The notes under the pieces are model-generated. The model was not told the origin of the DNA. It did not search any database and saw nothing but the letters and a program-made list of their open reading frames with translations. A stretch of 64,000 bases of DNA from Fibrobacter sp. UWB11 (GTDB lineage: Bacteria > Fibrobacterota > Fibrobacteria > Fibrobacterales > Fibrobacteraceae), in NCBI RefSeq assembly GCF_900143015.1, contig NZ_FSRT01000002.1, positions 496,001 through 560,000 on the forward strand. Reading direction: 5' to 3'. A program made the translations under genes and the position numbers. This document shows positions 28,073 through 54,798 of the stretch, one piece after another. Positions within the stretch are counted from its first letter, which is position 1. Every line of letters begins with the position of its first letter.

Positions 28073-28074
28073 TC

Positions 28075-31773: not shown

Positions 31774-31774
31774 A

Positions 31775-36072: not shown

Positions 36073-36650
36073 TTCCCGCTCCGGGCGGCGGCTATCTCGG
36101 CGTTTATCTCGTCGAGCGTCATACCTGCGGAACCGGCCTTCTCGGCATCGGCAGATAGCTGTTGCATGGTACGGAGCATGCGGCTTGCAACCGGGTTCGC
36201 ATTATAGAACATTCGCCTGTCATTCACGAACATCGTACGCAGCGGAGCATCAACGATATCAAGAAATTCTCGTGGAGTAACAACAAAACCGCAGACCGGG
36301 AAATGTTTGGTGTTACCTGTAACCAAGTACGCGCCGTCGTCTCGCTTGGCCAGGACCACATTGTAAAACACAACGTCCTTTGGGTCGGGGAGCACGACTC
36401 CACTTGGCGGAGCATCGACATTCAGGCTGTGCTTCAACAACTCGGAAATAACAGTCTCAACGGTTTCCTGCTCCAGATTGAATTTAGGACGCGCAAGAAC
36501 TTCCTTGTATTCGGCAAGAATCTCATTGTTCACAAGCATGCAAACGCGGCCAGATAAAATTCTCTGAATAACCTGCAACACTGGCGATTGCGGAGACCTG
36601 GTGATCAAGGCGGACACAATGACATTAGTGTCAATGACTGCATAAACCAT
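36069..36650 (-). CDS. PIN-domain toxin with an antitoxin-like C-terminal tail
   Basis: The ATG at 36650 (MVYAVIDTNVIVSAL) is chosen: GAGG lies 6 nt upstream, and the 4-residue extension relies on TTG. Residues 1-135 are a PIN domain of the 'putative toxin-antitoxin system toxin component, PIN family' type, with acidic residues in VIDTNV, the middle E in NNEILAEYKEVL, and DPKDVVFYN. Members cleave RNA. The last 60 residues are unusual: NANP...RMLRTM followed by GMTLDEINAEIAAARSGK is like the C-terminus of the partner antitoxin (DANPGWRAFMELRR, GMSEAEIEAEIAAYRAGK). Confidence 0.85.
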   Translation of the reverse strand: MVYAVIDTNVIVSALITRSPQSPVLQVIQRILSGRVCMLVNNEILAEYKEVLARPKFNLEQETVETVISELLKHSLNVDAPPSGVVLPDPKDVVFYNVVLAKRDDGAYLVTGNTKHFPVCGFVVTPREFLDIVDAPLRTMFVNDRRMFYNANPVASRMLRTMQQLSADAEKAGSAGMTLDEINAEIAAARSGK

Positions 36651-36667
36651 GAGCCACCTCAACTAAG

Positions 36668-36961
36668 TTACTTGCCTGCTCGATAAGCGGCGATCTCGGC
36701 CTCGATTTCAGCCTCGCTCATGCCTGCGGCGGGGCCTCGCTGGGCCTGCCTGCGCAATTCCATGAAGGCCCTCCATCCGGGATTGGCATCGTAAACGGCG
36801 GACGGCTCGCGCAGTTCGAACGGGATGCCCTTCTCGGCGACGGCGCGCTTGAAAAAGATGCGGATTGCCGTGGGGATGTCGATTCCCAGGTTTTCGAAAA
36901 GCTCGGCGGCCTCGTTCTTTAGTTCTTCGTCCACGCGGACCTGCAACACGGTAGTAGCCAT
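36668..36961 (-). CDS. RelB/DinJ-type antitoxin
   Basis: The ATG at 36961 (MATTVLQVRVDEELKNEA) is preceded by GGAGG; the longer frame runs into a GC-rich repeat and is rejected. The 97 residues start with a ribbon-helix-helix motif (residues about 4-45, LQVRVDEELKNEAAELFENLG then IPTAIRIFFKRAV), typical of RelB/DinJ. The C-terminal part (about 60-97) wraps the toxin and ends GMSEAEIEAEIAAYRAGK. The toxin gene follows within 20 bp. Antitoxin and toxin should jointly repress their own promoter. Confidence 0.9.
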   Translation of the reverse strand: MATTVLQVRVDEELKNEAAELFENLGIDIPTAIRIFFKRAVAEKGIPFELREPSAVYDANPGWRAFMELRRQAQRGPAAGMSEAEIEAEIAAYRAGK

Positions 36962-37284
36962 ATCAACCTCCGTTCTATTACAAATATAATACAAAACATT
37001 ACACACGTCAAGCACTAAATGCTGGAATATAGGCAGATTTATAGACAGGCGTTCCCCGGCCCAGGCCCCTGAGCTTGCCGAAGGGCCGGGTCGGGCTATA
37101 TCGCAAGGCGCCCCGTGCGCGCCTACGGCACCCCCGCGCCGCTCTTGCAACGGAGCCGCGCAAGCGCGTCTCCGCCCCAAGGGGTCACTATCCCTAACGT
37201 AAATGCGGGATTACCTTACAGAACTTATTCGATGGCGAAACTGATGCGAAGGTTTAAACAGTTCATACCTTTGAAGAAAATTTT
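36962..37284. other. GC-rich intergenic repeat sequence upstream of the antitoxin
   Basis: There is no gene here. An AT-rich antitoxin promoter (36965-37020) is followed by a very GC-rich block (about 37045-37175). Its piece CCCCTGAGCTTGCCGAAGGG is repeated, inverted, near 51747-51777 as CCCTTCGGCAGGCTCAGGGG, and a related form occurs at 63341-63361. Composition is far from that of both neighbours. Confidence 0.55.
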
Positions 37285-38567: not shown

Positions 38568-40487
38568 TTAATTAATCACATCAATTACTTTCGGAGAATG
38601 TGCGTTTGTTGCATCATTTCCCTTATACGCATTGATGGATTCCTTTAACTCGCTTACACTAATAGAATCGTCAATTTTATAATTGCAGATTTCCACAACG
38701 ATATAGTCTTCAGCGGAATGTGCGCTGCCAGAAAATCCATTTTTCCCCAATTCTATCTGCAATTTTTCAGCATCCATAACAGAGATGTTTTTCGAAATAT
38801 CCCCTCGAATAATTCGACCGTCATCTGCATAGCCGATAAATTTTTTGCAGCGTTTCAAATCGGGATGAATCGGGTATTTGAATCCGTCTTTTGTTCTGTA
38901 GAAATAAAATAGAAACGACTCAGGCTTTAATGCATCGGCAATAAAGTTGAAATAAGGTTGTTTTAAATAACCGATCATAGTCAGCTGATTGTCAACATTT
39001 TCTTTTGACTTTCTCTGCAAAGTCTGTGAAGTATCGAGTATTCCTGAAAAAACATCTTGGAATTGAACTTCGCCTCTTACCTTATTGAGTTCGTCTTTGC
39101 AGGATTTTCCTTTTATATACGCATCCCACACAAAAGACGGCCTTAAAAACAGCAGATATAATGGGACAAGAGTTTCAACACCCCAATCCATCATAGTCAC
39201 ATGCCCGCGAAGCTTTATGTTTTCCGTTTCATCAGAATCAGAAAGCATTGGGAACAAGAATGCGTTAAAGACGGTGCAATGATATTGACTGAAAATGTAA
39301 TCAAGGAAAGCTTTATGATAGACAAACTGCTTTACAACATCTTGAACACCGGGATTTCCACTAATTTTATTATTGGTTATACGAGGTAAATAGTATTTCC
39401 CGTCCAGAATGTAAAAGAGTTCTGAACCATCAGGATAATTGTATCTTGTAACAATGTCTGGAATTAGCGTCTCAACATTTTTGTCAAAGTTGCCATCTAA
39501 TTTCCACAACGGCTTTGGAATATGCCTTTTCAATGTTTCATACTCATTCCCAAATATCTGTCCGCAGGCTTTTTCCCAAACCAGGTTCATGCAGTTTGTC
39601 CCATAGAGACTATAAGAGTTCTCCTGCGAACTTGTTCCGGATGTGGCGACAAATGTGTAAAGCGTTTTTAAAAGATTCTGCTTTCTTGTGATAAATTGGT
39701 TTGCAATTTCTCGTTCTAGACGGTAGAGGATATAATCCGTATCGCCAAAGTCCTTCAAATCTAATTCACTTAGAAGGACCTCCGGCATATCAAAGAAATC
39801 CAATATCGTCAATTCCTTAAGATATTTGGAGCATTGAGTAACGATGCATTCATGAAGGCGCTTGAAATAATCAAAATCATCATTTTGCGACGAGCGTGTT
39901 TTCAGTTCCAGATAATAAGGGCGATTGTCTTTTATATAGGCAAAGGTTTCGTTAATTGTTCGGTCCCAGTCGATTTCACCATCGCCATTGGTTTCTATGA
40001 TTTCCTGAATGTTTGTATAGACACCGTTCTCGAAGTAATCCTGCAAAATGTGCAACGACAAAGCCAATTTGTTATACTCGTCTTTATCGTCCCTATTATG
40101 CAAATGAACCAATTCGCCTTTAGAATCGTATTTGCGAATAGCTTTAATTGCCAACTTCAATTCTTCGAGAATCTTTTCTTTATCGGAATATGTAGTGTAT
40201 TTAGGGTAGCAGAAGACTACTTTATCTTTTACAGCGACAATGCCAACAAAGTCAAACTTGTAGCTTGCTCCTGAAACTTCTTCTGCAGAATCCGCTATGA
40301 CAAGGTCGTCGTTGGTCAAATCCGCGAAATCAAGACTGTCTTTCTTGACAATTTTCACAATCCCGTATTTACGGAGTGTATTTATGTAGGCTTTTACATT
40401 TTCAGAGGTACATCCCAGACGCTCCCTAATCTCATTTAGGGAGTATCGCTTCAATTCTTGAAATAGGGATGGTTCTACTTTTGTCAT
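38568..40487 (-). CDS. LlaJI/McrC-like restriction nuclease subunit
   Basis: This 639-residue protein resembles the LlaJI restriction endonuclease family (McrC-like partner of a McrB-type GTPase). An N-terminal winged-helix-like part has LNEIRERLGCTSENVKAYINTLRKYGIV (about 14-41; read as LNEIRERLGCTSENV plus KAYINTLRKYGIV). The putative PD-(D/E)XK centre is LIPDIVTRY followed by YILDGKYYLPR (about 340-375), giving PD...DxK. It overlaps the GTPase gene by 4 bp (ATGA). With that GTPase and the methyltransferases it should cleave unmodified DNA by GTP-driven translocation. Recognition sequence cannot be read from sequence. Confidence 0.82.
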   Translation of the reverse strand: MTKVEPSLFQELKRYSLNEIRERLGCTSENVKAYINTLRKYGIVKIVKKDSLDFADLTNDDLVIADSAEEVSGASYKFDFVGIVAVKDKVVFCYPKYTTYSDKEKILEELKLAIKAIRKYDSKGELVHLHNRDDKDEYNKLALSLHILQDYFENGVYTNIQEIIETNGDGEIDWDRTINETFAYIKDNRPYYLELKTRSSQNDDFDYFKRLHECIVTQCSKYLKELTILDFFDMPEVLLSELDLKDFGDTDYILYRLEREIANQFITRKQNLLKTLYTFVATSGTSSQENSYSLYGTNCMNLVWEKACGQIFGNEYETLKRHIPKPLWKLDGNFDKNVETLIPDIVTRYNYPDGSELFYILDGKYYLPRITNNKISGNPGVQDVVKQFVYHKAFLDYIFSQYHCTVFNAFLFPMLSDSDETENIKLRGHVTMMDWGVETLVPLYLLFLRPSFVWDAYIKGKSCKDELNKVRGEVQFQDVFSGILDTSQTLQRKSKENVDNQLTMIGYLKQPYFNFIADALKPESFLFYFYRTKDGFKYPIHPDLKRCKKFIGYADDGRIIRGDISKNISVMDAEKLQIELGKNGFSGSAHSAEDYIVVEICNYKIDDSISVSELKESINAYKGNDATNAHSPKVIDVIN

Positions 40488-42169
40488 TTCTTGAAGTTAA
40501 AAATGCCTTGGCCGATTTCGTCAAACTTTTTGCATATATCCGAGAAACGCAACTTGCCAACAGCATTTTCATCGAAAAGGTCGCCAGGACGCATTTTTAC
40601 GGCATCTTCAAAGAGATACATCAGCACCTTGCTCTTGAAGGATTTGACAAATTCGTCGGCATTATCTTCTTTTTTGCCCTCAACCAACTTTAGTTTTTCT
40701 TCGGAAATAAAATAAGGACCAAGCAACTTATCTTCGTTGATTTTCATTTCTGTCAATTTGTCATTGATTGAATGACGAAGATCGTTCCACTTTACCCATT
40801 CACGACCAATGACTTTGCCGTCCGCATCTTTTTTGATTTCTACCGGAATGTCGTATTTTTCAATTCCCTCTTGGTTGTCATCAATACCGATGTATTCAAA
40901 TTCCCAACGACGCTTGAATGCGGTATCCATCGGGAATACGCCCTGGTCGGCACTGTTCATTGTCGCCCAGATGTACATATTGGAAGGAATGCAAAGTTCC
41001 TTTTCGTTAATTCCATTATCAGCAAGAAAATTCCTAATATCTTCGCTAGCAGCAATGGGATATTCGCTTACACCATTTTTACGATCAAGAAGTTGGAATA
41101 CGTCGCCAAAAACGGCAGCAACATTAGCCCGGTTAATTTCCTCAATAATAAGCAAAAAGTCATTATTGGAATTTTTCTTAGCGGCACAATACATACGCAT
41201 GAATGGGCCGGGAACATATTCGTATTTTATTTGCTTTTTATCATCGCTGTCTTGAACCGGCTTATATGTCCCGACAAATTGTGCATAACTATAATTGGGA
41301 TGAAATGTAACTCTTTCAACATACTTTATTTCAGTTTCTATTTCTGACGATCTTATTTGTGAAGCCTGCGCGCCCCTATAAATCCACCACATTTGGGGTT
41401 CAGAAAGTTCAAAGGTCTTTCGCAGTTCGTCAAGAGTCCAATCTTTTAAGAAATCTCCAAATTTAAAACCGATTGCATTTGCCCATTTGAGCGAATCGTT
41501 ACCTCCCTTTTTATTCTGAATGAGATCCTTAATAAAATCAATATCTGTCAGTTGCTCATCTTTCTCTATTTGAATTTCATCTGAAATCGGCTTTGCATTG
41601 GATCCTATATAAAGTTCATCTATTTTATCATACTCACAATAACTAGACAAATCTTTCCTCTGAATACTTTTCAACTCATCGGAATATTTGAATCCAATAG
41701 AATTTAACAAAGTTAATTTTCTGGATTTTGTAATAGCTTCAGCAATCGCGTTCCTAATTTCATCTTTTTTATCTTTACTAATCTTTTTTTGGTCTTCAAA
41801 AGGAGAAGATTGTTTATTTATTGTAAAACTTTTTCCGGTGCCTGGGGCTCCAAAAACAACTCGCTGCAAAGGAATGCCAGATAATTGGGTATTTGCGTTA
41901 AAACTTTGATTTGCGGCCCCATCTAGTTCTTCTTTTTGGACATCAATAATTTTCCCGCTTAAATTGTTTTTAGAAATAAATTTTCCCAAATCAGAACTAT
42001 TTGGAATATATGAAAGAAAATATTCTGTACTAGAACTCTTCGCCAATGTAAAGAAATCATCTTTATTTGCGGCCAAAGATAATCCAAGTTCATGAATAAA
42101 AAAATCTTTTATAAAAAGTGATTCGTCTAAATTTTGATAGACTTTATAATCACCTCGTGCAGGGCTCAA
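40484..42169 (-). CDS. McrB-like GTPase restriction subunit (AAA+)
   Basis: The visible 561-residue frame begins with TTG at 42169 and has no obvious ribosome site. A preceding 58-residue ORF in another frame probably supplies the true N-terminus. The AAA+ core has Walker A VVFGAPGTGKSFTI (about 103-116), Walker B FLLIIEEINRANVAAVFGDV, and the McrB hallmark MNSADQGVFPMDTAFKRRWEF (read as MNSADQG then AFKRRWEF), the equivalent of MNTADRS that marks GTP-using McrB. It powers the LlaJI/McrC-like subunit encoded next. Confidence 0.88.
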   Translation of the reverse strand: MSPARGDYKVYQNLDESLFIKDFFIHELGLSLAANKDDFFTLAKSSSTEYFLSYIPNSSDLGKFISKNNLSGKIIDVQKEELDGAANQSFNANTQLSGIPLQRVVFGAPGTGKSFTINKQSSPFEDQKKISKDKKDEIRNAIAEAITKSRKLTLLNSIGFKYSDELKSIQRKDLSSYCEYDKIDELYIGSNAKPISDEIQIEKDEQLTDIDFIKDLIQNKKGGNDSLKWANAIGFKFGDFLKDWTLDELRKTFELSEPQMWWIYRGAQASQIRSSEIETEIKYVERVTFHPNYSYAQFVGTYKPVQDSDDKKQIKYEYVPGPFMRMYCAAKKNSNNDFLLIIEEINRANVAAVFGDVFQLLDRKNGVSEYPIAASEDIRNFLADNGINEKELCIPSNMYIWATMNSADQGVFPMDTAFKRRWEFEYIGIDDNQEGIEKYDIPVEIKKDADGKVIGREWVKWNDLRHSINDKLTEMKINEDKLLGPYFISEEKLKLVEGKKEDNADEFVKSFKSKVLMYLFEDAVKMRPGDLFDENAVGKLRFSDICKKFDEIGQGIFNFKK

Positions 42170-42183
42170 TTTTAAATAGCCCT

Positions 42184-42360
42184 TTATATTTTTTTATCAA
42201 GTGAGGGCTTGAAATTATAATCATTATAAACAAAGGTGATGTATTCCTCAGTATTTTTAAACTCAAAGAACTCTTGAACATTCTTTGAGCTAAACTCCAC
42301 TTGTTTTCCATAACTTGGATCTAAGTCGTTTGTTCGAAATTTAACGATAAGGATCTTCAT
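42184..42360 (-). CDS. N-terminal piece of the McrB-like protein, out of frame at an A7 run
   Basis: ATG at 42360 overlaps the upstream methyltransferase stop (ATGA) and is preceded by GGAGG. It encodes MKILIVKFRTNDLDPSYGKQ ... NDYNFKPSLDKKI, 58 residues. The frame ends right after seven A (minus strand, 42189-42195). One added A would join it directly to the GTPase frame (KK-NIKGYLKLSPARG). Either this is a real frameshift, or slippage at A7 makes full-length and short forms. The piece looks like the DNA-reading N-terminal domain of McrB-like proteins. Confidence 0.7.
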   Translation of the reverse strand: MKILIVKFRTNDLDPSYGKQVEFSSKNVQEFFEFKNTEEYITFVYNDYNFKPSLDKKI

Positions 42361-43541
42361 TTAGTCCTCCTTTTCTTTAAAAATTCCATTAAGCTTTCGC
42401 CCATCGCTTTCCCTAAAAGCGGGGGAACTGCATTTCCTACTTGAACATAGGTCTCTTGTTGATTTCCAACAAAAACAAAATCATCTGGGAAAGACTGCAA
42501 TCGTGCCGCTTCACGAACAGAAAGGGTTCTGTTTTCTGTCGGATGGATATACATGTATCCATCCATTCCAATGTGCGCAATAACAGTCCAAGAAGGTTGG
42601 TCCATTATCAGACGTTTCAGTCTATCATGGAAAATATCTTCTCTAAACGGCAAAATTCTTCGGATTTCAGGAGGTAAATCCATATATTTACCTCCTTGAG
42701 GCATATGAGGAAAAACCTGTTTAGCTCTGTCATTAGACATTCTACAAATGTTGTTAGAGACAAATCTCGAGCTATGATTTGAACGCATTATTTTCTGATA
42801 TTCATTTAAGCGAGTATATTTAGAATACTCAACTTCCGAAACACGCCAATTATCCGTAATTCTAGGCAAATCACCAATAGCATCGCCAACGGTTACAAAA
42901 TGTTTCAAACCTTTCTTATCTTCTTGATCATAATAATGAGTTGGCTTTGGATAGGAAAATTTCAGTTTCGATTTCTTTTGGGCGACCAAAAGCATTCTTT
43001 TTCTTGTCTGTGGCACTCCATAATATACGCTGTTCAAAACTTGAACAGGCTTGATTACTTCATAGAGTCCTTCTCCACCATTTTCTTCTTTTCCAATACT
43101 TTCAATAATCTTGACAGCTGTATTAAATATCTTGCCGTTATACTTTGTTATAAAATTCGGAACATTCTCAATAACAAATATTTCGGGACGAAAATATTCA
43201 ACATACTTTAGGTATTCTAAAAACAGCTGATTTCTAGGATCCTTTTCTGTTGGCAAACCCGTAACAGAACGAATTTTTGCGTCTCCAATGGTTGAAAAAG
43301 TCGGGCAAGGAGGCCCTCCGATAATGACATCAACCTTTTTTTTACCAATAATCTTCGCAAATTTTTCGGGCGGAATCTCTCTTATGTCACCACAAATGGA
43401 TTTTGAATGTTTGTGATTTAGTGCGTGAGTTTTTACAATGGTTTCTATATTATCTATTCCTCCAATGCACCTAAAACCAGCCAATTCAAGCCCTGTTGAA
43501 AAGCCTCCTGCACCACAGAACAAATCAATAAATTCGTACAC
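42357..43541 (-). CDS. DNA cytosine-5 methyltransferase (copy 1, PCP motif)
   Basis: This 394-residue enzyme shows the m5C methyltransferase motifs in order: I FCGAGGFSTGLELAGF (about 7-22), IV GGPPCPTFSTIG (catalytic Cys, about 76), VI ENVPNF, VIII YGVPQTRKRMLLVAQ, and X VQVGNAVPPLLGKAMG. Motif IV reads PCP rather than the usual PCQ. It abuts the next methyltransferase gene with no gap. In LlaJI two such enzymes modify the two strands of an asymmetric site, and this pair may do the same. Confidence 0.93.
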   Translation of the reverse strand: MYEFIDLFCGAGGFSTGLELAGFRCIGGIDNIETIVKTHALNHKHSKSICGDIREIPPEKFAKIIGKKKVDVIIGGPPCPTFSTIGDAKIRSVTGLPTEKDPRNQLFLEYLKYVEYFRPEIFVIENVPNFITKYNGKIFNTAVKIIESIGKEENGGEGLYEVIKPVQVLNSVYYGVPQTRKRMLLVAQKKSKLKFSYPKPTHYYDQEDKKGLKHFVTVGDAIGDLPRITDNWRVSEVEYSKYTRLNEYQKIMRSNHSSRFVSNNICRMSNDRAKQVFPHMPQGGKYMDLPPEIRRILPFREDIFHDRLKRLIMDQPSWTVIAHIGMDGYMYIHPTENRTLSVREAARLQSFPDDFVFVGNQQETYVQVGNAVPPLLGKAMGESLMEFLKKRRTK

Positions 43542-44744
43542 TTAATTAACCTTTTTCAAAAATTTTTTGATAGCCTTTGCTAAAGCCTGTGCCATTAAGG
43601 GAGGCACGGCATTCCCAACTTGACGATACTGCTCTGTTTTAGAACCTTCAAAGAAAAAGTCATCTGGGAAAGATTGAACTCGAGCCGCTTCACGCACAGT
43701 AAAAGTTCGTTCCTGATTTGGATCAGGATGAATGAATAGATTTCCATCCTTGTAAAGGTGCGCGCAAATCGTTTTTCCTGGCTTACCCCATTCTTGAACA
43801 GTATATCTGTTTCCAAAATGCTTCGGATCGTGATTTACCAAATCGGGACGAACACACTGCAAATCTTTTAATTGCCAATTTTGATGCTCACTCAAAATAC
43901 GATAGCGCTCTCGATCTTTCTCATTCTGAGTTCTTGCCGTATGGTTATAAACAGACTTAAAACCATCAGGTTTTATTTTAGAAAGAAAATCGTTATGAAT
44001 ATCTGTTTCGTAATTTTCCCAAACTTCTTTGCCTTCAGAAGGGAGTACAAAAGGCAAATCCGAAATTGCATCCCTAATTGTCACATAAGGCGGCAACTTT
44101 GATTTTTCATCGTTGCTATTGGTCTTTACAACACTCTTATATATCTCTTCGGGCTCAATATCAAGATCGTTTCTGACGCCAATGAGTATGACTCTTTCTC
44201 GAATTTGTGGGACACCGTAATCAGCGGCGTTCAAGAGAATGATTTTAGAATCATCACAAACCTTATAAGTCTTACGCATTTTTGAAATTATTTCGTCAAA
44301 AATTCTTTTTCCCTTCGGTTTTGCTGTAAGGATTCCACGAACATTTTCAAAAACAAAAAACTTTGGTTTAAAATGATTCAACACCAGCAAATAATTTTCA
44401 AACAAGTAATTACGCGGATCATCCTTCATTGAATTTGGATCCTGAGCTCGACCCTGTGTCGAAAACGCCTGACAAGGAGGGCCTCCAACTAAGATGTCTA
44501 CATTCGAATCAATCCGTGATGACAATTCTTCCACAATATCTGGACGAGTAATATCATCGCATACAACGGCTTTCTCAATATCTGGAGCCTTGTAGCCATA
44601 GTGTTTCATTCTTGTCCGCAGAGTCTGGCAAGCAGTAGCATCCCATTCTAAGTGCAACAAAGCCTTAAAACCTTCTCGATAGAAGCCTTCAGATAACCCA
44701 CCACATCCGGCAAATAAATCAATAAATGTAAACTTCTTAGGCAT
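43542..44744 (-). CDS. DNA cytosine-5 methyltransferase (copy 2)
   Basis: This 400-residue m5C methyltransferase has motif I FAGCGGLSEGFYREGF, IV GGPPCQAFSTQGRAQD (catalytic Cys about 90), VI ENVRGILTA, VIII DYGVPQIRERVILIG and X RQVGNAVPPLMAQAL. The target recognition domain lies between VIII and IX (about 200-340) and differs from copies 1 and 3, so the three enzymes probably read different sequences or strands. Its start overlaps the end of the small helical protein gene by 8 bp. Confidence 0.94.
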   Translation of the reverse strand: MPKKFTFIDLFAGCGGLSEGFYREGFKALLHLEWDATACQTLRTRMKHYGYKAPDIEKAVVCDDITRPDIVEELSSRIDSNVDILVGGPPCQAFSTQGRAQDPNSMKDDPRNYLFENYLLVLNHFKPKFFVFENVRGILTAKPKGKRIFDEIISKMRKTYKVCDDSKIILLNAADYGVPQIRERVILIGVRNDLDIEPEEIYKSVVKTNSNDEKSKLPPYVTIRDAISDLPFVLPSEGKEVWENYETDIHNDFLSKIKPDGFKSVYNHTARTQNEKDRERYRILSEHQNWQLKDLQCVRPDLVNHDPKHFGNRYTVQEWGKPGKTICAHLYKDGNLFIHPDPNQERTFTVREAARVQSFPDDFFFEGSKTEQYRQVGNAVPPLMAQALAKAIKKFLKKVN

Positions 44745-45045
44745 CTTTCTTCAGTTGCTCAGACAGAGCTTTAATAAATTCAGCATAACGCTTTAACGCA
44801 TTGATTACGGTCGAATGTCCTTGTTTTCCGACTAACTCTTTTTCTCCGCCAACATCATACTTCTTGACAATTTGGTCAATACATTTTGGAAGTGTAATTA
44901 GAGAAACACGTTCTGCATCACATACTTTCTTTATTGCGTGAATATATTGAGGCACAGTTGATGGCAAACCAGATGGCGTGACTTGAGAATACCCACAATC
45001 AATAAGAAATTCTTCAAATAAATCCAAAAGTTTATTATCAGCCAT
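44737..45045 (-). CDS. Small helical protein, 102 aa, unknown
   Basis: ATG at 45045 (MADNKLLDLFEEFLID) is chosen for a GAGG 9 nt upstream; the longer frame reads back into the receiver gene. The all-helical pattern (LLDLFEEFLIDCGYS, then VPQYIHAIKKVCDAERVSL, then STVINALKRYAEFIKALS) recalls the SAM-like core-binding domain of tyrosine recombinases without a catalytic part. It overlaps the receiver gene by 8 bp upstream and methyltransferase 2 by 9 bp downstream, so it is an integral part of the operon. It might be a DNA-binding adaptor or regulator. Confidence 0.75.
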   Translation of the reverse strand: MADNKLLDLFEEFLIDCGYSQVTPSGLPSTVPQYIHAIKKVCDAERVSLITLPKCIDQIVKKYDVGGEKELVGKQGHSTVINALKRYAEFIKALSEQLKKDA

Positions 45046-45976
45046 TTGATGAGACCTCATTTGAAAGGTTTTTAAACACATTATGATATTTAATAATATT
45101 TTTTCGTATATTAATAATATCCTCGAAATTAAACTTTTTATCTTCTTTTGAAGTTTTCAGAATTTCATTTCCTTCAGCATCATATGCCGCCTGACAATGC
45201 GCTAATATATTTCGATTATCAATAATCTCAGATTTGTATGACTCGAGATTAAACTCTATGTCGCTTTCAGAGTCTTTCGCCTTTATCTTTTGAACAATGT
45301 AGTTAATAGCTCTAGCCGTTGTATACGACTCAAAACCTTGTTTAAATACAACATCCTTGATATTCTTAGTTCGCCAGACATGCGTACATTGCTTCTTACA
45401 ACTTGAACTCTCTAAAGAAGTCTTGTTACGTTCTTCAATTGTTCCAACAATGTAATCACGCATATTTTTCTCATTTTCTGAATCATTGCAATAGTCGGAA
45501 ACAATTTTTTTCATCACTACATCAAGTTCACTCACCTCGGACATGACAAGTCCACGAAGATTGCTTAGATCATTTAGTTTTTCCAAAGTTAAATTGATGA
45601 CTGATTTCATTTTTTCTTTTAGCTCATCATAGGAGCGATTGTCTTTTAAACGAAGAAATGAAATCCTGTCCAAATTCGTTGCAGGCGGATTATGAAGAGC
45701 TGAATAGAACAAAACTTCAGCATTAACACATTTCTTTCGAATCGCCGTTATGAAATCAAGACCGTCCCCGCCTTCGCCAATATTGTAATCAGAGAAAATA
45801 ACATCATATTTTTTTGACGGCGCTTTTTCTTCCGCCTCTCTTATGTTATCATACATATCAATACAAGGGTTGAAAAAAAGCCCTTGAACATAGGATTTAA
45901 TTTCTCCATCCATTTCTAAAGATTGATATTCTTCTTTTCTATCATCGACCCAAAGGATGTTGTATTGTAAACTCAT
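45038..45976 (-). CDS. Receiver-domain protein with HEPN-like C-terminal domain
   Basis: ATG (MSLQYNILWVDD) with GAGG upstream is preferred over a TTG 8 codons earlier. Residues 1-125 are a response-regulator receiver: acidic pair in LWVDDRKEEY (D11, D12), phospho-acceptor in VIFSDYNIGEGG (D63), S92 in LFYSA and K111 in LRLKDN. The C-terminal 180 residues have no DNA-binding motif. They are helical and contain EIIDNRNILAHCQ (R255-x4-H260), the Rx4-6H signature of HEPN RNases, plus a C-x3-C-x-H cluster (SCKKQCTH). The histidine-kinase-like partner is encoded directly upstream. I infer a phosphorylation-controlled effector. Confidence 0.78.
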   Translation of the reverse strand: MSLQYNILWVDDRKEEYQSLEMDGEIKSYVQGLFFNPCIDMYDNIREAEEKAPSKKYDVIFSDYNIGEGGDGLDFITAIRKKCVNAEVLFYSALHNPPATNLDRISFLRLKDNRSYDELKEKMKSVINLTLEKLNDLSNLRGLVMSEVSELDVVMKKIVSDYCNDSENEKNMRDYIVGTIEERNKTSLESSSCKKQCTHVWRTKNIKDVVFKQGFESYTTARAINYIVQKIKAKDSESDIEFNLESYKSEIIDNRNILAHCQAAYDAEGNEILKTSKEDKKFNFEDIINIRKNIIKYHNVFKNLSNEVSSNG

Positions 45977-45986
45977 TACGATAACC

Positions 45987-48377
45987 TCACTTAAACGCAA
46001 ATATAAATTTTACGCCATGACATTTATTGTCAATTTGTATGTCAACATTCATTTTTTTACAAATTTCCTGCACATGGTACAAGCCTAATCCTCCGCCATT
46101 CGTAGTAGAAAAGCGATAGTCAAAAACCTTTGGAAGAATTTCGTCAGAGATCCCGTGTCCATCGTCACTAAAGTTCAGCAAAACCGTTGAACCTTTTTCT
46201 TCCCATTGGATAGTAATGTTTTTTGCCTCCGCTTTTCGAGAGTTATCAAGCAGGCTATCCAGAACAACAATGAGATCAATCGGAGCAAATTGCAATTCAT
46301 GCGAAATGGTCGTTTCTGCTACTGAAATATTCATGTCCTCATTAGCCAACGAATACACGTTGTTCATATATTCGTTAACAAAAGCAACAATATCTTTTGT
46401 TATTTTTTTTGACATCAAGTCAAATTTTGCTTTGCTTACAAAATTGGAAAGTGTCGCAATTTTGGTATTCTCAAAAATAATTCGCTGAATAAACGATATT
46501 GATTTCTCTTTGTTGTCTGAATTTATCGCATCAATCGCTTTTAGTGCTAAAGCATGAATAAAACTAGATGTATGCGTTATGTGGTGTTGCAAAGAGGCTA
46601 GCTGCTTGACATCTTTATTAACATCCGAAGACAAGAATAGATTTTCCGAACGCATCCTTTTATTTTCGGATTCGGCCTTATTCTGCTTCGCCTCGGCTAT
46701 TTGGGCGTTATATTGCGCCTGGTCTCGTTCTTGGCTCGCCTTTTCCGCACGAAGATTCGCTTCCTCGGCTCTTTTTTCAGCATCTTCTTTTTGCTTCTGT
46801 AATTCAGCAATTTTTTTTCTGGCATCTTCTACAGATGCCATCAATTTGCCATCTTTTGTATTTTCTGCGATCCGTTCTAAATCGGTAATAACTTGAGGAT
46901 TGGCATTATCGAACAAATTCGGCTCTTCAAAAATGTTTGCCAAGTCCTTATTGTAGTATATGACATCGATATTTTCATCGCTAATTAGGGTCTTTACCAA
47001 CTGAACAAAGTCAATCTTACTCCCCAGACTAGAGTTGATTACATATTCTGCGGAATCTGAGTCCTTATCCTGACTTAATAAGGCCCTATTCCTTTCAACT
47101 TCGGCCTTATCTTTAAAATACTGTCTTCTTAAGAAGGCTTCGCCCCATAATACACCAGAAACATATCGCTCTAGTCGATGGTGGACCACATCGAACAACC
47201 TTAACAACTGAATGGTTGTCTCCGATTCAATTAGGCCACCATCGCGGCTAGAGACCTCTTTAAATTCGTCAATTTTGTCTGTCTGAATATCAACACGACC
47301 AAACAAATCACGAGTTCCAAGAAAACGATTATAACCCTGTTGAGCTCTATAATCGAGTTTCCAGCTATCATCTCCAGGATTACCAAAAGGAAGGATTCTA
47401 AAACCATTACGGAACAGAAAAACTGATCCATATTTAACGGGCTGGATGCCCATTTCTTCTGTGAAATTCTTCTTTGCCGCTCTGTTGAGAAAATAGAGAC
47501 TTATTTTTACAGCCTTAAGTTTGTCGAAAGTATTCTTTTCCTTGATCTGATAAATTTTCGTATCACGGTCAATCAAAAGAGTTTCGATACTATCGGCATT
47601 TAATGAAACATCAATCTTTGTGGTCTTTAATCCGATAACTTTGGCAATACTATTTTTTAGTACGCCATTGACTATATCACGATCGTGTGCGTTCTTCTTT
47701 ATTTCTTCGGCATCTTGCTTCTTTTCGTTTTCGCAAACGATTTCGATAGAAAAACTAGAAGTATCGGATAGCGGATTAATTAATTTTTCAAGTGAACGTT
47801 TTAATTCAAGAATCTTGGGGCGATCCCAATTTTCTCGAAGTCCACTTATCTCCAAAATAGTTCCCGTATTTTTTCTCTCTGGGAACGATACTTTTTCATC
47901 TAAAGAATCGTGTTCTACATTGATGTCAATAAATTCTTTTTTTTGGTCTTTCTCAAAATCCTTCCAATGTACAATTAGCCGTTCAGTTTGTTTTGACTCT
48001 TTCTTTTTTGTGGTTAATTGGAGATTTTCTCCCAACCTATCACACGAAAAACGACCTACGCCTTTTGCACCAGCATAATGCCTGCCAATTTTATCGCGAT
48101 AAGACTGCTGTTTTTCATCTTCTGCATCTTCCGAGCCGTCTTTCTTTGCGGAATAAGCCAAAAAAAGCCACTTGTTTTTCAAGTCATCAAAAGTCATTCC
48201 CTTACCATTATCGGCAATCGTAATCTTATCGGATTCAAATATTATGACAACTTTTGAAGCGAACGCATCATAGGAATTTTTGACAAGTTCAAAAACCGCA
48301 ATGTTATCATTGCGAATCAAATCTTTACCGACTAAATCCTTGATGGCTGAACTGACTTTAAATTGGACTTTATCCAT
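45987..48377 (-). CDS. Double-GHKL ATPase: MutL/MORC-like domain fused to histidine-kinase-like domain
   Basis: This 796-residue protein has two Bergerat ATP sites. The N-terminal one resembles Hsp90/MutL/MORC: FELVKNSYDA (29-38), ADNGKGM (55-61) and GAKGVGRFSCDRLG (about 102-115). A middle domain leads to a long coiled coil (about 510-575, Glu/Lys/Ala/Gln heptads). Then a possible phospho-His helix, SLQHHITHTSSFIHAL, comes before a kinase-type ATP site: DSLLDNSRKAEA, SDDGHGIS, VFDYRFST and GGGLGLYHVQEI. Its start overlaps methyltransferase 3 by 8 bp, and the receiver gene follows 10 bp downstream. It looks like a cytoplasmic DNA-engaged sensor kinase. Confidence 0.82.
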   Translation of the reverse strand: MDKVQFKVSSAIKDLVGKDLIRNDNIAVFELVKNSYDAFASKVVIIFESDKITIADNGKGMTFDDLKNKWLFLAYSAKKDGSEDAEDEKQQSYRDKIGRHYAGAKGVGRFSCDRLGENLQLTTKKKESKQTERLIVHWKDFEKDQKKEFIDINVEHDSLDEKVSFPERKNTGTILEISGLRENWDRPKILELKRSLEKLINPLSDTSSFSIEIVCENEKKQDAEEIKKNAHDRDIVNGVLKNSIAKVIGLKTTKIDVSLNADSIETLLIDRDTKIYQIKEKNTFDKLKAVKISLYFLNRAAKKNFTEEMGIQPVKYGSVFLFRNGFRILPFGNPGDDSWKLDYRAQQGYNRFLGTRDLFGRVDIQTDKIDEFKEVSSRDGGLIESETTIQLLRLFDVVHHRLERYVSGVLWGEAFLRRQYFKDKAEVERNRALLSQDKDSDSAEYVINSSLGSKIDFVQLVKTLISDENIDVIYYNKDLANIFEEPNLFDNANPQVITDLERIAENTKDGKLMASVEDARKKIAELQKQKEDAEKRAEEANLRAEKASQERDQAQYNAQIAEAKQNKAESENKRMRSENLFLSSDVNKDVKQLASLQHHITHTSSFIHALALKAIDAINSDNKEKSISFIQRIIFENTKIATLSNFVSKAKFDLMSKKITKDIVAFVNEYMNNVYSLANEDMNISVAETTISHELQFAPIDLIVVLDSLLDNSRKAEAKNITIQWEEKGSTVLLNFSDDGHGISDEILPKVFDYRFSTTNGGGLGLYHVQEICKKMNVDIQIDNKCHGVKFIFAFK

Positions 48378-49560
48378 TCATCACCTCCATCAAGGCTCTT
48401 CCCACCTGTTCTGCAAACAATGGCGGCACCGCGTTTCCGACTTGTGTATATCGAGGAACTTCTTTTTTCCTTAACTTTCCGCCCGAAGTATATTTTCCCT
48501 TAAATTCAAACCAATCGGGGAAACTTTGAATTCGAGCCTGCTCGCGCACTGTAAGAATTCGCGGTTCTTCGTAATGAACGAGTTCATCTGGAATTGACGT
48601 TATTGTCGGTGCTTGAGAATTCGCATCAAGGACTGTAACACCACGCCTTTTCAGATTTTCTATTAAGCCATCTTTGGGCGTTATTCGCTTGCCTTTGGGG
48701 GCATTCTGCAACAAATCGTTGTGCAATTTTATCACTGCGGCAGAATGATTGACAAAACGATGACTGTCAACGGCACCCTGATGATTCCGAAGTCCTTGAC
48801 GCATCAGCCTTTGATAACCTGAATCGGCTCGACCATAGAACCCGGCTTGGAACCGTTTGGTATCGGGAGACTGGCATGTGCCGTTCGCTTCTTCCAAATC
48901 GCCAATAGCATCTCGAATAGTTGTAGATTGTCTGATTCCTTTTTCTCGGCAGAAATTATTTTTGTTGCCCTCCAAATGAGCAAATACTTCGGATGGGTCA
49001 GAATTCCGCATAGCAACAAGGATAAACCTACGCCGTTTTTGAGGAACACCGTATTGGGAGACATCAATAACTTTGGAATCCGTACGATAACCAAGTTCTT
49101 CAAGCTTCTTTATGACATAAGACGAATATTGGGATATTCGTCCCTTTTGGCTTTGAAAATGAACGGTAAAGCCATGTACATTTTCGAATATGAGCGCCCT
49201 GGGCTTGACTAACTCGACAAACCTTATATACTGTTTAACAAGCTTGTTACGCGAATCGCTCAGATCCCTTTTTCCAGCAAGTGAGAATCCCTGACAAGGC
49301 GGGCCCCCTGCTACCAAATCCACCTGGCCTTCCAGCTCACGAAGTTTATCTTCGTTTTCATCCAAAAATTTTTTGATATCATGTTCTTTCACATCCAACC
49401 AATCGGGCCACTGGAAATGATGACCATGATCAATCAAATTATACTTCAATGTAGAGAACGCATCTTTATTTTTTTCAATAGCGAATATGCCTTGCCAACC
49501 GGCATTTTGCAAACCAACGGACAAGCCGCCGCACCCTGCGAATATGTCGATATAGCGCAT
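48370..49560 (-). CDS. DNA cytosine-5 methyltransferase (copy 3, first in operon)
   Basis: This 396-residue enzyme has motif I FAGCGGLSVGLQNAGW (about 6-21), IV GGPPCQGFSLAGKRD (catalytic Cys about 88), VI ENVHGF, VIII QYGVPQKRRRFILVA, and X TQVGNAVPPLFAEQVG. It is the first gene of the operon, with GGAGG 7 nt before the ATG. Putting modification first protects host DNA before the nuclease subunits appear. It probably modifies a site read by this system, but may pair with the GHKL protein instead of the LlaJI-like nuclease. Confidence 0.94.
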   Translation of the reverse strand: MRYIDIFAGCGGLSVGLQNAGWQGIFAIEKNKDAFSTLKYNLIDHGHHFQWPDWLDVKEHDIKKFLDENEDKLRELEGQVDLVAGGPPCQGFSLAGKRDLSDSRNKLVKQYIRFVELVKPRALIFENVHGFTVHFQSQKGRISQYSSYVIKKLEELGYRTDSKVIDVSQYGVPQKRRRFILVAMRNSDPSEVFAHLEGNKNNFCREKGIRQSTTIRDAIGDLEEANGTCQSPDTKRFQAGFYGRADSGYQRLMRQGLRNHQGAVDSHRFVNHSAAVIKLHNDLLQNAPKGKRITPKDGLIENLKRRGVTVLDANSQAPTITSIPDELVHYEEPRILTVREQARIQSFPDWFEFKGKYTSGGKLRKKEVPRYTQVGNAVPPLFAEQVGRALMEVMNG

Positions 49561-49779: not shown

Positions 49780-50062
49780 TTCCCCCACCAAGTAAAAAGG
49801 CGGCGTCATTCTTCCATCAGTACCGCGATGTCGTCCTTGTCGAGGTCGGTGCCGAAGGCTTGCCGGTAGCTCGATTCCAGCGCCTCTCCGGGGGTGCAGT
49901 TTTCCCTGAACAGGACCATGCCGCTGTCCAGGCATTCCATGTCCAGCTCGCCGTCGATGTCGATGCTTTCCGGCCGGAACGTGGACCATAGGCAATAGTC
50001 GGTGAACCCTTCCCGAATGTCTTCTTCGAGCAGGTTGTCGCCCGTGCCCGCCTGGACTTTCA
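49780..50062. repeat. 280-bp direct repeat, copy A
   Basis: Near-identical (about 95% by eye) to 51802-52084 in the same orientation. It covers the C-terminal 80 codons of a small gene and the sequence just beyond its stop. Confidence 0.85.
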
Positions 50063-50123
50063 GGAACGCCTTTGCGCTCTTGACCCATGCGAGTATCGCG
50101 CCGCCGAACGTGTCGTTTTCCAT
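49806..50123 (-). CDS. Hypothetical protein, 105 aa (paralogue A)
   Basis: The protein begins MENDTFGGAILAWVKSAKAF and is acidic, with LLEEDIREGFTDYCLWSTF and DKDDIAVLMEE at the end. It is soluble and of unknown family. It shares about 80 C-terminal residues almost unchanged with the 103-residue protein at 51829-52140, while the first 20 differ. This shows a recent segmental duplication or gene conversion. Base composition is more GC-rich than the restriction operon next to it. Confidence 0.7.
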   Translation of the reverse strand: MENDTFGGAILAWVKSAKAFLKVQAGTGDNLLEEDIREGFTDYCLWSTFRPESIDIDGELDMECLDSGMVLFRENCTPGEALESSYRQAFGTDLDKDDIAVLMEE

Positions 50124-50323: not shown

Positions 50324-51121
50324 ATGAAGATAAAGGTAATGGACGCCGAGATTTCGGTGCAGAGAATCGGGAACGAGGATTACATCTCGCTAACAGATAT
50401 GGCTCGTAGCCAAATGCAGGAACACATTATTTTCAAATGGCTTAGCACCAAAAGTACAATCGAATATTTAGGTGAGTGGGAGTCCCTCTACAATCCAGAT
50501 TTTAATTATACCGAATTCGGTACAATTAAAAATATGGCAGGAAGCAACAATTTCGTCCTTTCGACAAAACAATGGATACTTTCCACTAATGCCCTTGGCA
50601 TAGTGGCAAAAACAGGCCGATATGGAGGAACATTCGCCCATAGGGATATCGCCTATCATTTCGGAATGTGGATTAGCCCACGATTTCACCTACTTCTCAT
50701 TCACGAATACCAGCGTCTCAAGGCTGCAGAACAGGCTCAATTGGGCTGGTCCGTGCGGCGAGAACTGTCAAAAATCAACTACCATATCCATACGGACGCA
50801 ATCAAGCAAAACTTGATTCCCGCGACGCTTTCGAAGCAGCAGATGAGCATGGTTTATGCAAGCGAGGCAGACGTTTTGAATGTCGCCCTGTTTGGCTTTA
50901 CCGCGAAGGAATGGCGCGATGCCCATGCCGACTTGCAGGGGAATGTCCGCGACTATGCGACGGTGAACCAGCTGATTTGCCTTTCGAATATGGAATCGCT
51001 GAATTCCGTATTGATTAAGGAGGGGCTGCCGCAACCCGAACGCCTGCAAAAGCTGAACCAGATAGCCATTTCTCAGATGACTGTGCTGGAATCGATTGGG
51101 GAAAACAAGTTGTTGAAATAA
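50324..51121 (+). CDS. KilA-N domain protein
   Basis: This 265-residue protein begins MKIKVMDAEISVQRIGNEDY followed by ISLTDMARSQ, the entry strand and helix of KilA-N. It continues FKWLSTKSTIEYLGEWE and, near residue 95-125, TGRYGGTFAHRDIAYHFGMWISPRFHL, the conserved G-G-T-x-A-H-x-D-I-A/F region. KilA-N is a DNA-binding domain of phages and large DNA viruses. The C-terminal part (about 140-265) is helical and resembles the extension of bacterial chromosomal KilA-N proteins. AAGGAG lies 6 nt before the ATG. It is flanked by the two 280-bp direct repeats. Confidence 0.85.
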   Translation: MKIKVMDAEISVQRIGNEDYISLTDMARSQMQEHIIFKWLSTKSTIEYLGEWESLYNPDFNYTEFGTIKNMAGSNNFVLSTKQWILSTNALGIVAKTGRYGGTFAHRDIAYHFGMWISPRFHLLLIHEYQRLKAAEQAQLGWSVRRELSKINYHIHTDAIKQNLIPATLSKQQMSMVYASEADVLNVALFGFTAKEWRDAHADLQGNVRDYATVNQLICLSNMESLNSVLIKEGLPQPERLQKLNQIAISQMTVLESIGENKLLK

Positions 51122-51801: not shown

Positions 51802-52084
51802 CTTCCCCCACCAAGTAAAAAGGCGGCGTCATTCTTCCATCAGTACCGCGATGTCGTCCTTGTCGAAGTCGGTGCCGAAGGCTTGCCGGTAGCTCGATTC
51901 CAGCGCCTCTCCGGGGGTGCAGTTTTCCCTGAACAGGGCCATGCCGCTGTCCAGGCATTCCATGTCAAGCACGCCGTCGGTGTCGATGCTTTCCGGCCGG
52001 AACGTGGACCATAGGCAATAGTCGGTGAACCCTTCCCGAATGTCTTCTTCGAGCAGGTTGTCGCCAGTCCCGCTTTGAACTTTC
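51802..52084. repeat. 280-bp direct repeat, copy B
   Basis: Same orientation and nearly the same sequence as 49780-50062. The two copies bracket 1.74 kb holding the KilA-N and ASCH genes. Confidence 0.85.
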
Positions 52085-52140
52085 AGAAATACTTTCTCAT
52101 CTTTCAGCCAAGCGAGTAAAGCGTTGAACATCAAATACAA
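51829..52140 (-). CDS. Hypothetical protein, 103 aa (paralogue B)
   Basis: The N-terminus MYLMFNALLAWLKDEKVF differs from paralogue A, but from LKVQSGTGDNLLEEDIREGF onward only a few residues differ. ATG is preceded by AAGGAGA. It is acidic, soluble and of unknown function. The sharp switch from unlike to near-identical sequence marks the edge of the duplicated or converted tract. Confidence 0.7.
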   Translation of the reverse strand: MYLMFNALLAWLKDEKVFLKVQSGTGDNLLEEDIREGFTDYCLWSTFRPESIDTDGVLDMECLDSGMALFRENCTPGEALESSYRQAFGTDFDKDDIAVLMEE

Positions 52141-53072: not shown

Positions 53073-53643
53073 AATAACTCCTTGATTGTTCATTTAACTG
53101 ACAATACATGAAACTACATCCATCAAACAAGCCCCGTCAAGGGGTCGCTTTGTTGCCTAAATTTTCTATAAAACCTTCAAACAAGCACGAAATTCTGCAA
53201 CGACCTGTTGCAGAATTCAAAAAAAATGCACCAAGCTGGTGCAGAATTAGACTAGCCTAAAAGAAAATTTTGCCGTCATTGCAGCCCCTTGATTCCGTCA
53301 AAGCGTTTATTTATATTGTTATCGTAATTCGATAATCCTCGCGACAGTCGACATAGACCTCTTGGTCCGTACGTGCATTCGCGGTGAGGCCCATCAACCT
53401 TCTTGTTGATGCTGTTGGATAGCTGGTAGGAACACGACCTACTCGAGAGCGTCCGCCAAACGGGCGCCAAGTAACGCCGGGGAAAACCCCCGCCAACAGT
53501 ACCGCAAGAGCATCCCATTTTCAGCGCAACGCGCTGGAAATCCCCCACACAAAAGCAACCAGTTGTCGCAAAATCTGCGACAACTAACAACGCGCATTTT
53601 TTGCGTGTTGTTTGCACCACATTTCACAAAAAAGGATATCAAA
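53073..53643. other. Palindrome-flanked GC-rich block upstream of yhcG (possible structured RNA or mini-element)
   Basis: The gap holds a run of strong hairpins. They are AATTCTGCAAC-GACCT-GTTGCAGAATT (53191-53217), TGCACCA-AGC-TGGTGCA (53227-53243), ATTTTCAGCGC-AAC-GCGCTGGAAAT (53517-53541), AGTTGTCGCA-AAATC-TGCGACAACT (53561-53585) and an 11-bp stem at 53586-53612. Between them lies a GC-rich block (about 53276-53515) with open minus-strand frames of 61 and 114 codons in different phases. Neither has a recognisable domain or a good ribosome site. CATCAAC-CTTCTT-GTTGATG inside the block adds another stem. I cannot decide between RNA, small gene and insertion. Confidence 0.5.
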
Positions 53644-54798
53644 ATGACTGAAAAATCACCCGTAGATGTTCGCCAAGCCGTCAATACGATAAAAAACGCC
53701 ATCCTTCAAAGCCAATATAGGGCGGCGAAGGTTGTGAATAGGGAACAATTGTCGCTTTACTTCGGAATAGGCCGATATGTTTCGGAACATTCTAGGAAAG
53801 GAGTATGGGGAACTGGTGCTATTGAACGCATCAGCGAACAATTGCAAAAGGAATTGCCTGGATTGAGGGGTTTTTCTGGCACAAGCATTAAGAAAATGCG
53901 CCAATTTTATGAAGAATGGGGCTTTATAATTCGACCGCCCACGGCGGGCGATTTGTCGAAATTTGATCAAAAATGCAATTTTTCCACTTCGTTAACCGAT
54001 TTGGAAGGCATTGACTATACCTTACTCCTGGCACAAAATCGGCAGCCGATGGCTGCCGATATGATGAACAAATTTCTGTCAATTAGTTTTACTCATCATA
54101 TAGAAATAATTACCAAATCAAAAGACCTGCAAGAACGCCTCTTCTACATCCACCAGACATTCGTCAATCATTGGGACAAAAACAAGCTCCGCGATATGCT
54201 CAAATCGGATCTTTTCCACCATCAAGGAAAATTGCCTAATAACTTTACAAACACGATGAACAGTTCAAAGAATGCTTTGCAGGCTATCGGAATGTTCAAG
54301 GACGAATATCTGCTCGATTTTATCAATGTCGAGGAATTGGGCGTTCGCGACAAGGCGGATATTGACGAGCGAGTTGTCGAAAAAGCTATTGTCAACAATG
54401 TTAAAAACTTCATCATGACCTTCGGACGTGACTTCGCATTTGTCGGTAATCAGTACCATCTAGAAAAGTTCGGGCATGACGAATATCCTGATTTGCTTTT
54501 CTACAACCGGGAATTGACGGCTCTTGTTGCAGTCGAATTGAAGCAAGGGGCTTTCAAGCCGGCTTATCTCGGACAACTAAGTGCTTACCTGCGCATTCTC
54601 GATAGCGAAGTCAAGAAGCCGTTCGAAAATCCGAATATTGGCATTGTACTTTGCAAGGAAGCGGATAAAACATTTGTGGAGTTTCTCATACAAGGTTACG
54701 ATAATCCAATGGGGGTAGCCACTTATAAATCAGCTGAAGATGTTCGCAAGGTTCTGCCTTCGGAAGAAGACCTACGCAAAGCGATGGAAGAGGGGTAA
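53644..54798 (+). CDS. DUF1016/YhcG PD-(D/E)XK nuclease
   Basis: The start at 53644 (MTEKSPVDVRQAV) has AAGGA upstream; the upstream extension is rejected. The 384-residue protein has a DUF1016 N-terminal helical domain (about 10-110, FGIGRYVSEHSRKGVWG, GFSGTSIKKMRQFYEEW). The C-terminal nuclease carries FAFVGNQYHLEKFG followed by YPDLLFYNRELTALVAVELKQG (read YPDLLFYN, then LVAVELKQG, about 288-315), giving the D...E-x-K centre intact. Two in-frame inserts, RPPTAGDLSK and NRQPMAADMM, are encoded by DNA palindromes. YhcG is linked to restriction and RNA or DNA cleavage in mobile islands. Confidence 0.87.
   Translation: MTEKSPVDVRQAVNTIKNAILQSQYRAAKVVNREQLSLYFGIGRYVSEHSRKGVWGTGAIERISEQLQKELPGLRGFSGTSIKKMRQFYEEWGFIIRPPTAGDLSKFDQKCNFSTSLTDLEGIDYTLLLAQNRQPMAADMMNKFLSISFTHHIEIITKSKDLQERLFYIHQTFVNHWDKNKLRDMLKSDLFHHQGKLPNNFTNTMNSSKNALQAIGMFKDEYLLDFINVEELGVRDKADIDERVVEKAIVNNVKNFIMTFGRDFAFVGNQYHLEKFGHDEYPDLLFYNRELTALVAVELKQGAFKPAYLGQLSAYLRILDSEVKKPFENPNIGIVLCKEADKTFVEFLIQGYDNPMGVATYKSAEDVRKVLPSEEDLRKAMEEG
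53935..53947. repeat. In-frame palindrome 1 in yhcG
   Basis: CCGCC-CAC-GGCGG is the core of a longer imperfect stem (about 53929-53954) that encodes the RPPTAGDL part of the protein, just after the N-terminal domain. Confidence 0.5.
54038..54060. repeat. In-frame palindrome 2 in yhcG
   Basis: ATCGGCAGCC-GAT-GGCTGCCGAT is a perfect 10-bp stem with a 3-nt loop. It encodes NRQPMAAD, immediately before the conserved FLSISFTHH (LSWSHF-equivalent) segment. Confidence 0.8.

Follow-up and report, generated by a model that had tools for sequence, protein, structure and literature searches.

The window, i.e. the whole stretch of 64,000 nucleotides that was analysed, comes from Fibrobacter sp. UWB11 (contig NZ_FSRT01000002.1, positions 496,001 to 560,000). 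On its minus strand, genes for a C5-cytosine DNA methyltransferase, a histidine kinase and a response regulator form a three-gene module that is followed by a small ORF and by restriction-modification (R-M) genes. The following features were assigned:

48370-49560, minus strand: C5-cytosine DNA methyltransferase, first gene of the module (DNA_methylase, E 1.2e-59)
45987-48377, minus strand: double-GHKL soluble histidine kinase, 796 aa (HATPase_c_3 and HATPase_c; AlphaFold2 (AF2) model; Foldseek)
47838-48377, minus strand: N-terminal GHKL ATPase domain of the kinase, paraMORC-like, residues 1-180 (invariant motif residues in 86 proteins)
47148-47750, minus strand: S5-like transducer/middle region, residues about 210-410 (AF2/DSSP, Foldseek, conservation)
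46680-46850, minus strand: coiled coil, residues 510-566 (one long modelled helix rich in E, K, A and Q)
46431-46616, minus strand: DHp helical hairpin, residues 588-649 (modelled helices 588-619 and 623-649)
46584-46586, minus strand: H598, predicted phospho-acceptor His (86/86)
45990-46403, minus strand: histidine-kinase CA (ATP-binding) domain, residues 659-796 (HATPase_c; invariant N712, G763 and G765)
45038-45976, minus strand: receiver-HEPN response regulator, 312 aa (AF2 model; Response_reg and HEPN families in relatives)
45632-45976, minus strand: receiver (REC) domain, residues 1-115, with phospho-acceptor D63 at 45788-45790 (invariant D63; Foldseek)
45041-45571, minus strand: HEPN-type domain, residues 136-312 (HEPN matches of the relatives' C-terminal regions)
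45197-45214, minus strand: RNILAH, HEPN Rx4H motif with R255, N256 and H260 (R, N and H in 64/64)
44737-45045, minus strand: 102-aa ORF of no assigned function (8-base overlaps with the regulator gene and with M1)
38568-44744, minus strand: LlaJI-type R-M genes M1, M2, R1 (McrB-like) and R2 (RE_LlaJI) (RE_LlaJI E 8e-62, two DNA_methylase, AAA_5)

The kinase is a soluble protein in which two different, intact GHKL ATP sites are joined by a coiled coil. Pfam assigns residues 25-152 to HATPase_c_3 (E 2.5e-26) and residues 700-794 to HATPase_c (E 1.7e-21). In an AF2 model computed from 70 sequences (mean pLDDT 76, pTM 0.58), the order of elements is GHKL domain (1-180), S5-like region (~210-410), helical region, coiled coil, DHp-like hairpin and CA domain. 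Foldseek relates the N-terminal half to Hsp90, TRAP1, MutL LN40 and SMCHD1, the S5-like region to MutL LN40, Hsp90 and SMCHD1, and the C-terminal half to the histidine kinases ZraS, YycG and HK853. The maximum 19-residue hydropathy of the kinase is 1.12 and in none of 86 proteins does it exceed 1.8, so a membrane segment is lacking. Both the coiled coil, which corresponds to the long predicted helix 510-566, and the absence of a membrane anchor had been anticipated by the initial annotation.

Conservation was assessed in an alignment of 86 sequences, the window protein and its relatives. In the N-terminal ATP site, E30, N34, D56, G58, G60, M61, G103, K105, G106 and G108 are each found in 86/86 proteins. 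The same holds for N712, G763 and G765 of the C-terminal site, where D738 is present in 82/86; K302, R327 and R378 of the S5-like region are each kept in 84/86. The motifs by which both sites had been recognized initially are all present and essentially invariant. Since they are kept across 86 proteins, they are not chance features. In the N-terminal half, an S5-like domain comes after GHKL motifs I-IV, the arrangement of paraMORC/GHKL+S5 proteins, and the C-terminal half has a conserved putative phospho-His in a DHp hairpin before N, G1 and G2 boxes, that of histidine kinases. The initial annotation had also suggested that LQHHITHTSS could carry the phospho-acceptor His. The candidate in this segment is H598, the first His of QHHITH, which occurs in 86/86 proteins. 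HITH as phospho-site was ruled out, as its later His, H602, is shared by only 27/86. Neither the loss of a conserved His nor degenerate ATP sites, the two outcomes that would have refuted the idea of the initial annotation, were encountered among the 86 sequences. The residue that follows H598 is H in 32, Q in 27, S in 9, I in 6, D in 4, N in 3, T in 2, others in 3 and E in none of the 86 proteins. No Pfam DHp family matched the DHp segment in searches with 39 DHp regions.

The N-terminal half has a second likeness. Residues 14-228, and only these, match the BbrUII/HgiDII restriction-enzyme family NF050001 with 76.3 bits (E 1.9e-21), which is far under the curated cut-off of 550 bits and places the kinase outside this family; a PADLOC type II REase model reaches E 1.5e-6 on the N-terminal region. 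This likeness fits a DNA-reading module in which the nuclease has been swapped for a kinase. It could also be taken as a sign that the protein is a restriction-enzyme-like accessory factor whose paraMORC part loops DNA for a nuclease, as proposed for R-M paraMORCs (PMC2292703), and whose kinase half is a vestige or serves to control the ATPase cycle. We regard this as very unlikely: H598, N712, G763 and G765 (86/86) as well as the receiver Asp of the neighbouring regulator are invariant, so that the kinase half is no vestige, and the protein lacks a nuclease domain.

The initial annotation had named a receiver protein beside the kinase. Indeed, the regulator (AF2 pLDDT 91, pTM 0.83) carries D or E at position 11, D or N at position 12, the invariant phospho-acceptor D63 (64/64), S or T at position 92 (64/64) and a modelled (beta-alpha)5 fold; the usual conserved receiver Lys is not evident at 111-112. 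Response_reg (PF00072) was found in 50/59 relatives, and Foldseek retrieved PorX and CheY-like receivers. Across an alignment of 59 sequences, mean column identity is about 30%. D63, D58, W9, Y91, R141, G142 and R255-N256-H260, the latter within RNx[LF]AH, are present in all 64 HEPN-class relatives.

The output domain of the receiver, which the initial annotation had missed, appears to be a HEPN-type RNase domain. When the C-terminal regions of 57 relatives were compared with Pfam (E<=1), HEPN families were the most frequent matches: HEPN_Swt1 in 12, HEPN_RiboL-PSP in 10 (best 1.8e-6) and HEPN_MAE_28990 in 8 cases. HEPN domains are defined by a motif at the end of helix 3 and in the following loop (PMC3710099). 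RNILAH (255-260) is located exactly there, at the end of the modelled helix 244-258 and in the next loop. The window regulator itself is too divergent to match a HEPN model, a Foldseek search with the entire regulator yielded receivers and no HEPN protein, and a comparison of the HEPN-domain profile with the PDB did not find a HEPN either. Because both the own match and the PDB hit are lacking, HEPN membership is based on the relatives, the motif and its helix placement. On these grounds, the regulator most likely combines a receiver with a HEPN-type domain of predicted RNase activity.

The effector part is exchangeable. In 14 loci, the regulator comprises ~230 aa, retains the receiver Asp and lacks the HEPN motif, and the overlapping next gene encodes a 212-250 aa protein in which H64-G65 and C118-x-S120 do not vary (14/14). 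This HG...CxS dyad resembles that of caspase-fold peptidases. The fold is only proposed since profile similarity is weak, both to Peptidase_C25 (0.028, 3/14) and to caspase-1 (E 0.5). On the kinase tree, a quick tree that has to be read with care, well-supported branches force at least three independent changes between HEPN and caspase-like partners. Abortive systems swap toxic-type effectors on a constant sensor, and the exchange of HEPN and caspase-like proteins on a constant kinase follows this pattern. With a HEPN-type domain or a caspase-like protein as output, the pathway likely ends in the destruction of RNA or protein by an effector and goes beyond a mere report on DNA state. Within one kinase clade (L095, L109, L113 and L120), methylase and kinase are kept together with a stand-alone receiver of ~125 aa, and six-frame inspection revealed no HEPN or caspase gene behind these four receivers. 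Either the effector of this clade is encoded elsewhere, or the system has been stripped down. More distant double-GHKL kinases precede receivers with a C-terminal PxCD motif (TPECD, SPSCD, NPACD), encoded at L019 11167-12570, L020 6214-7626, L021 10295-11356, L023 10455-11741 and L026 9132-10205. No Pfam family beyond the receiver matched their C-terminal domains, which possibly represent a further effector type.

The related loci stem from a scan of genomes for which three related kinases served as seeds and which returned more than 583 pattern matches, at least 478 of them confirmed; 80 loci were kept. They originate from Bacteroidota, Spirochaetota, Planctomycetota, Pseudomonadota, Bacillota, Verrucomicrobiota, Campylobacterota, Calditrichota and methanogenic archaea. 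The window kinase clusters with a same-genus relative and with Treponema kinases, and is 72% identical to that of L048. Receiver-HEPN proteins are present in merely a handful of same-genus genomes. In a viral collection, an alignment-based scan detected 33 proviral loci, 12 of which encode a regulator with HEPN motif; a single-sequence scan of this collection found nothing, and the window regulator had no match in plasmid and phage collections. With its patchy spread across phyla, which extends to archaea and proviral contigs, the family has the hallmarks of an accessory defence gene that is mobile. The combination of methylase, kinase and regulator is not listed as a system in PADLOC.

The gene order is widely kept. 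In 70/77 loci, a Dcm-type gene immediately precedes the kinase gene at a spacing of -28 to +12 bases, and in the window both genes overlap by 8 bases. Several loci outside the 70 differ: L106 and L124 have a Dcm fragment upstream, and in L112, L118 and L122 a Dcm gene lies downstream. In 47/77 loci, a few of which are contig ends, no gene of the same direction is found within 250 bases behind the module. That the operon includes a conserved restriction enzyme was ruled out, as the downstream genes vary: the 35 scanned included C5 MTase (7), HNH_2 (3), Vsr (2) and single LlaJI, Eco29kI and BpuJI types. Since downstream genes are varied or absent, the core of the module consists of methylase, kinase and regulator, with or without the caspase-like gene, and does not comprise a conserved restriction enzyme.

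The tight coupling of methylase and kinase genes, which overlap or abut in 70/77 loci and might hence be expressed in equimolar amounts, invites comparison with PrrC/EcoprrI. In analogy, the kinase might guard the methylase in an addiction-like manner, its N-terminal domain sensing that the methylase is absent or inhibited instead of reading DNA; paraMORC-HEPN proteins have been proposed as analogues of PrrC and RloC (PMC3710099). A same-genus locus (L018, 7394-11757) bears on this point. Compared to the window (45038-49560), its methylase is 92% identical and its LlaJI R2 nearly identical, and its kinase is only 34% and its regulator about 23% identical. Judged from these identities, kinase and regulator seem to have been exchanged together, as one sensor-effector unit, beside the same methylase. 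Because a methylase of 92% identity is combined with a kinase of 34%, a tight one-to-one co-evolution of both is unsupported, and this speaks against a specific interface between the two proteins. A guard of this kind is quite unlikely in our view; it overlaps with the phosphorelay explanation favoured below and differs from it in the cue alone. The identity of the methylase target recognition domains (TRD) amounts to 0.31-0.41 compared to 0.60 for the catalytic core, with fixed TRD length and some invariant residues. This is suggestive of related specificities across loci, but not decisive.

Downstream of the module, the 102-aa ORF (44737-45045) has no family match and no relative in 85 loci and is probably a cassette passenger. 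The region 38568-44744 has the composition of a LlaJI system, i.e. two 5mC MTases, McrB-like R1 and R2 in one direction. Its pairing with the module recurs, with relatives of R1 at 13/85 and of R2 at 5/85 loci; these genes are associated and lie outside the core module. Their position directly after the module on the same strand would suit a regulatory two-component system that tunes how strongly the R-M genes next to it are expressed or how active they are, with HEPN as RNA-binding or protein-docking output and not as toxic RNase. A role in R-M control has indeed been suggested for the sister family HEF_HK/Response_reg_2 (PMC8011034). However, most loci lack an adjoining R-M nuclease, the retention of the catalytic R, N and H in 64/64 regulators exceeds the needs of docking, and replacement by an HG...CxS protein does not suit an RNA-binding regulator. 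Such tuning of R-M genes is unlikely.

Two PADLOC candidates, PDC-S22 at 50324-51121 (E 1.5e-123) and PDC-S02 at 53563-54798 (E 4.8e-117), are encoded on the methylase side of the module and place it in a defence island. On the downstream side, recC-, recB- and recD-like genes lie in a row (24371-33913); a DUF1016-like fragment (34888-35493) comes next in the numbering of the window, and then toxin-antitoxin-like genes (36069-37180). A pair of very similar ORFs of ~105 aa (FLKVQ.GTGDNLLEEDIREGFTDYCLWSTFRPESI...) at 49806-50123 and 51829-52140 are situated on the same strand 2 kb apart, with a KilA-N-type gene between them.

We consider it somewhat more likely than not that methylase, kinase and receiver-HEPN protein constitute a self-contained module, in which a methylase-linked His-Asp phosphorelay fires an abortive-infection effector. 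Points against it are the missing HEPN match of the window regulator, the four relatives whose receiver has no effector nearby, the absence of the system from PADLOC and the unequal identities of methylase and kinase in L018. The C5 methylase would mark host DNA as self. The N-terminal MutL/MORC-like ATPase could serve as a clamp gated by ATP and respond to a cue of infection, for which foreign DNA, wrongly methylated DNA and loss of the methylase are the most likely candidates. Clamp closure might rearrange coiled coil and DHp hairpin so that the C-terminal domain phosphorylates H598, from where the phosphate would be passed to D63 of the receiver; both residues are observed, and the reaction is presumed. 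Receiver dimerisation would then pair two HEPN domains to a composite RNase site with RNILAH. HEPN RNases and activated receivers are established dimers, which is the reason for assuming a site built from two chains. RNA cleavage at this site may cause growth stop or death of the infected cell. In the window, where the module precedes LlaJI-type genes, it could serve as second line behind restriction.

The domain make-up, the conserved catalytic residues, the gene order and the effector replacement are direct observations, from which we infer the anti-phage role. It is plausible that the kinase senses the DNA methylation state. The N-terminal site, which may clamp DNA or protein according to the initial annotation, might just as well respond to the methylase, to a different protein or to nucleotides. 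On the whole, that initial interpretation is partly supported, and it was in part anticipated in print (PMC8011034). More tentatively, and with less than even confidence, the loci may be viewed as a new, R-M-like class of immune system in which a His-Asp phosphorelay takes the place of the restriction nuclease: a MutL/MORC-type ATPase would read the DNA or its methylation state and trigger interchangeable suicide effectors, HEPN RNases or caspase-like proteases. If true, two-component signalling would trigger an abortive-infection effector instead of transcription, and DNA methylation as self mark would be tied to such signalling. Furthermore, the puzzling N-terminal paraMORC ATPase of hundreds of annotated 'sensor histidine kinases' beside methylases would obtain a testable role.

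Several known systems share parts of this module. The LlaJI R-M system (O'Driscoll et al. 2006) has the same make-up as the four genes downstream of the window module; the kinase module is extra in the window and absent from the four-gene LlaJI described (PMC1459862). In VcSduA (Shedu), the GHKL ATPase is required for defence, with E27A being inactive, and as in the window a GHKL clamp controls a C-terminal effector; in contrast, clamp and effector share one chain there, the effector is a nuclease that acts on DNA, and neither kinase nor receiver is involved (PMC12137116). PrrC/EcoprrI and RloC guard nucleases likewise employ a HEPN RNase as second line behind R-M, but contain an ABC ATPase, whereas the window module has a GHKL kinase and a predicted phosphorelay (PMC3710099). 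ParaMORCs of R-M systems, defined by Iyer et al. 2008, resemble the N-terminal half of the kinase in their GHKL + S5 module, their R-M/methylase neighbourhood and their sporadic distribution. They carry a nuclease, TIR or unknown domain where the window protein is extended by a histidine kinase (PMC2292703). In the vicinity of R-M genes, Anantharaman et al. 2013 noted fusions of HEPN (Ymh) domains to paraMORCs and likened these to PrrC/RloC. GHKL sensor, HEPN effector and methylase occur there as well, united in a single polypeptide as regards sensor and effector, while a predicted His-Asp phosphorelay links them here (PMC3710099). A figure legend of the DefensePredictor report names a predicted, unvalidated HATPase + REC candidate, a histidine-kinase-like ATPase with receiver flagged as probable defence, which could be related to the window family (PMC13092281).

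The closest counterpart was reported by Bellieny-Rabelo et al. 2021: proteins composed of HATPase_c_3, HEF_HK and HATPase_c, with links to Response_reg_2 receivers and to C5 methylases (PMC8011034). These proteins (PF19191/PF19192) share with the window family the N-terminal HATPase_c_3, the DHp, the C-terminal HATPase_c, the solubility and the adjoining genes for a receiver-like protein and a C5 methylase. A double-GHKL architecture with receiver and C5 methylase is therefore not new. However, Response_reg_2 proteins were reported to have no other known domains (PMC8011034), whereas the receiver here has a HEPN-type domain, and the phospho-His of HEF_HK is followed by Glu or Asp, whereas this position is mostly non-acidic in the window family. 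PF19191 matched neither the window kinase at E<=1 nor any protein of the window genome or of 60 same-genus genomes, and was absent among the reported matches of 39 DHp regions. PF19192 did not match the window regulator at E<=1 and did not appear in the list of the 25 families found most often in 59 relatives. Filing the module under HEF_HK/Response_reg_2 was ruled out, as neither the Pfam models nor the His-acidic rule apply; by sequence, the window family is a sister variant and not a member. In the literature searched, outside of which most subscription papers and preprints fall, we found neither the receiver-HEPN partner nor its pairing with such a kinase nor its exchange for a caspase-like protein. 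Relative to that literature, the receiver-HEPN effector and its swap are the new part, and the swap provides a functional handle, which was missing when the sister family was described in 2021.
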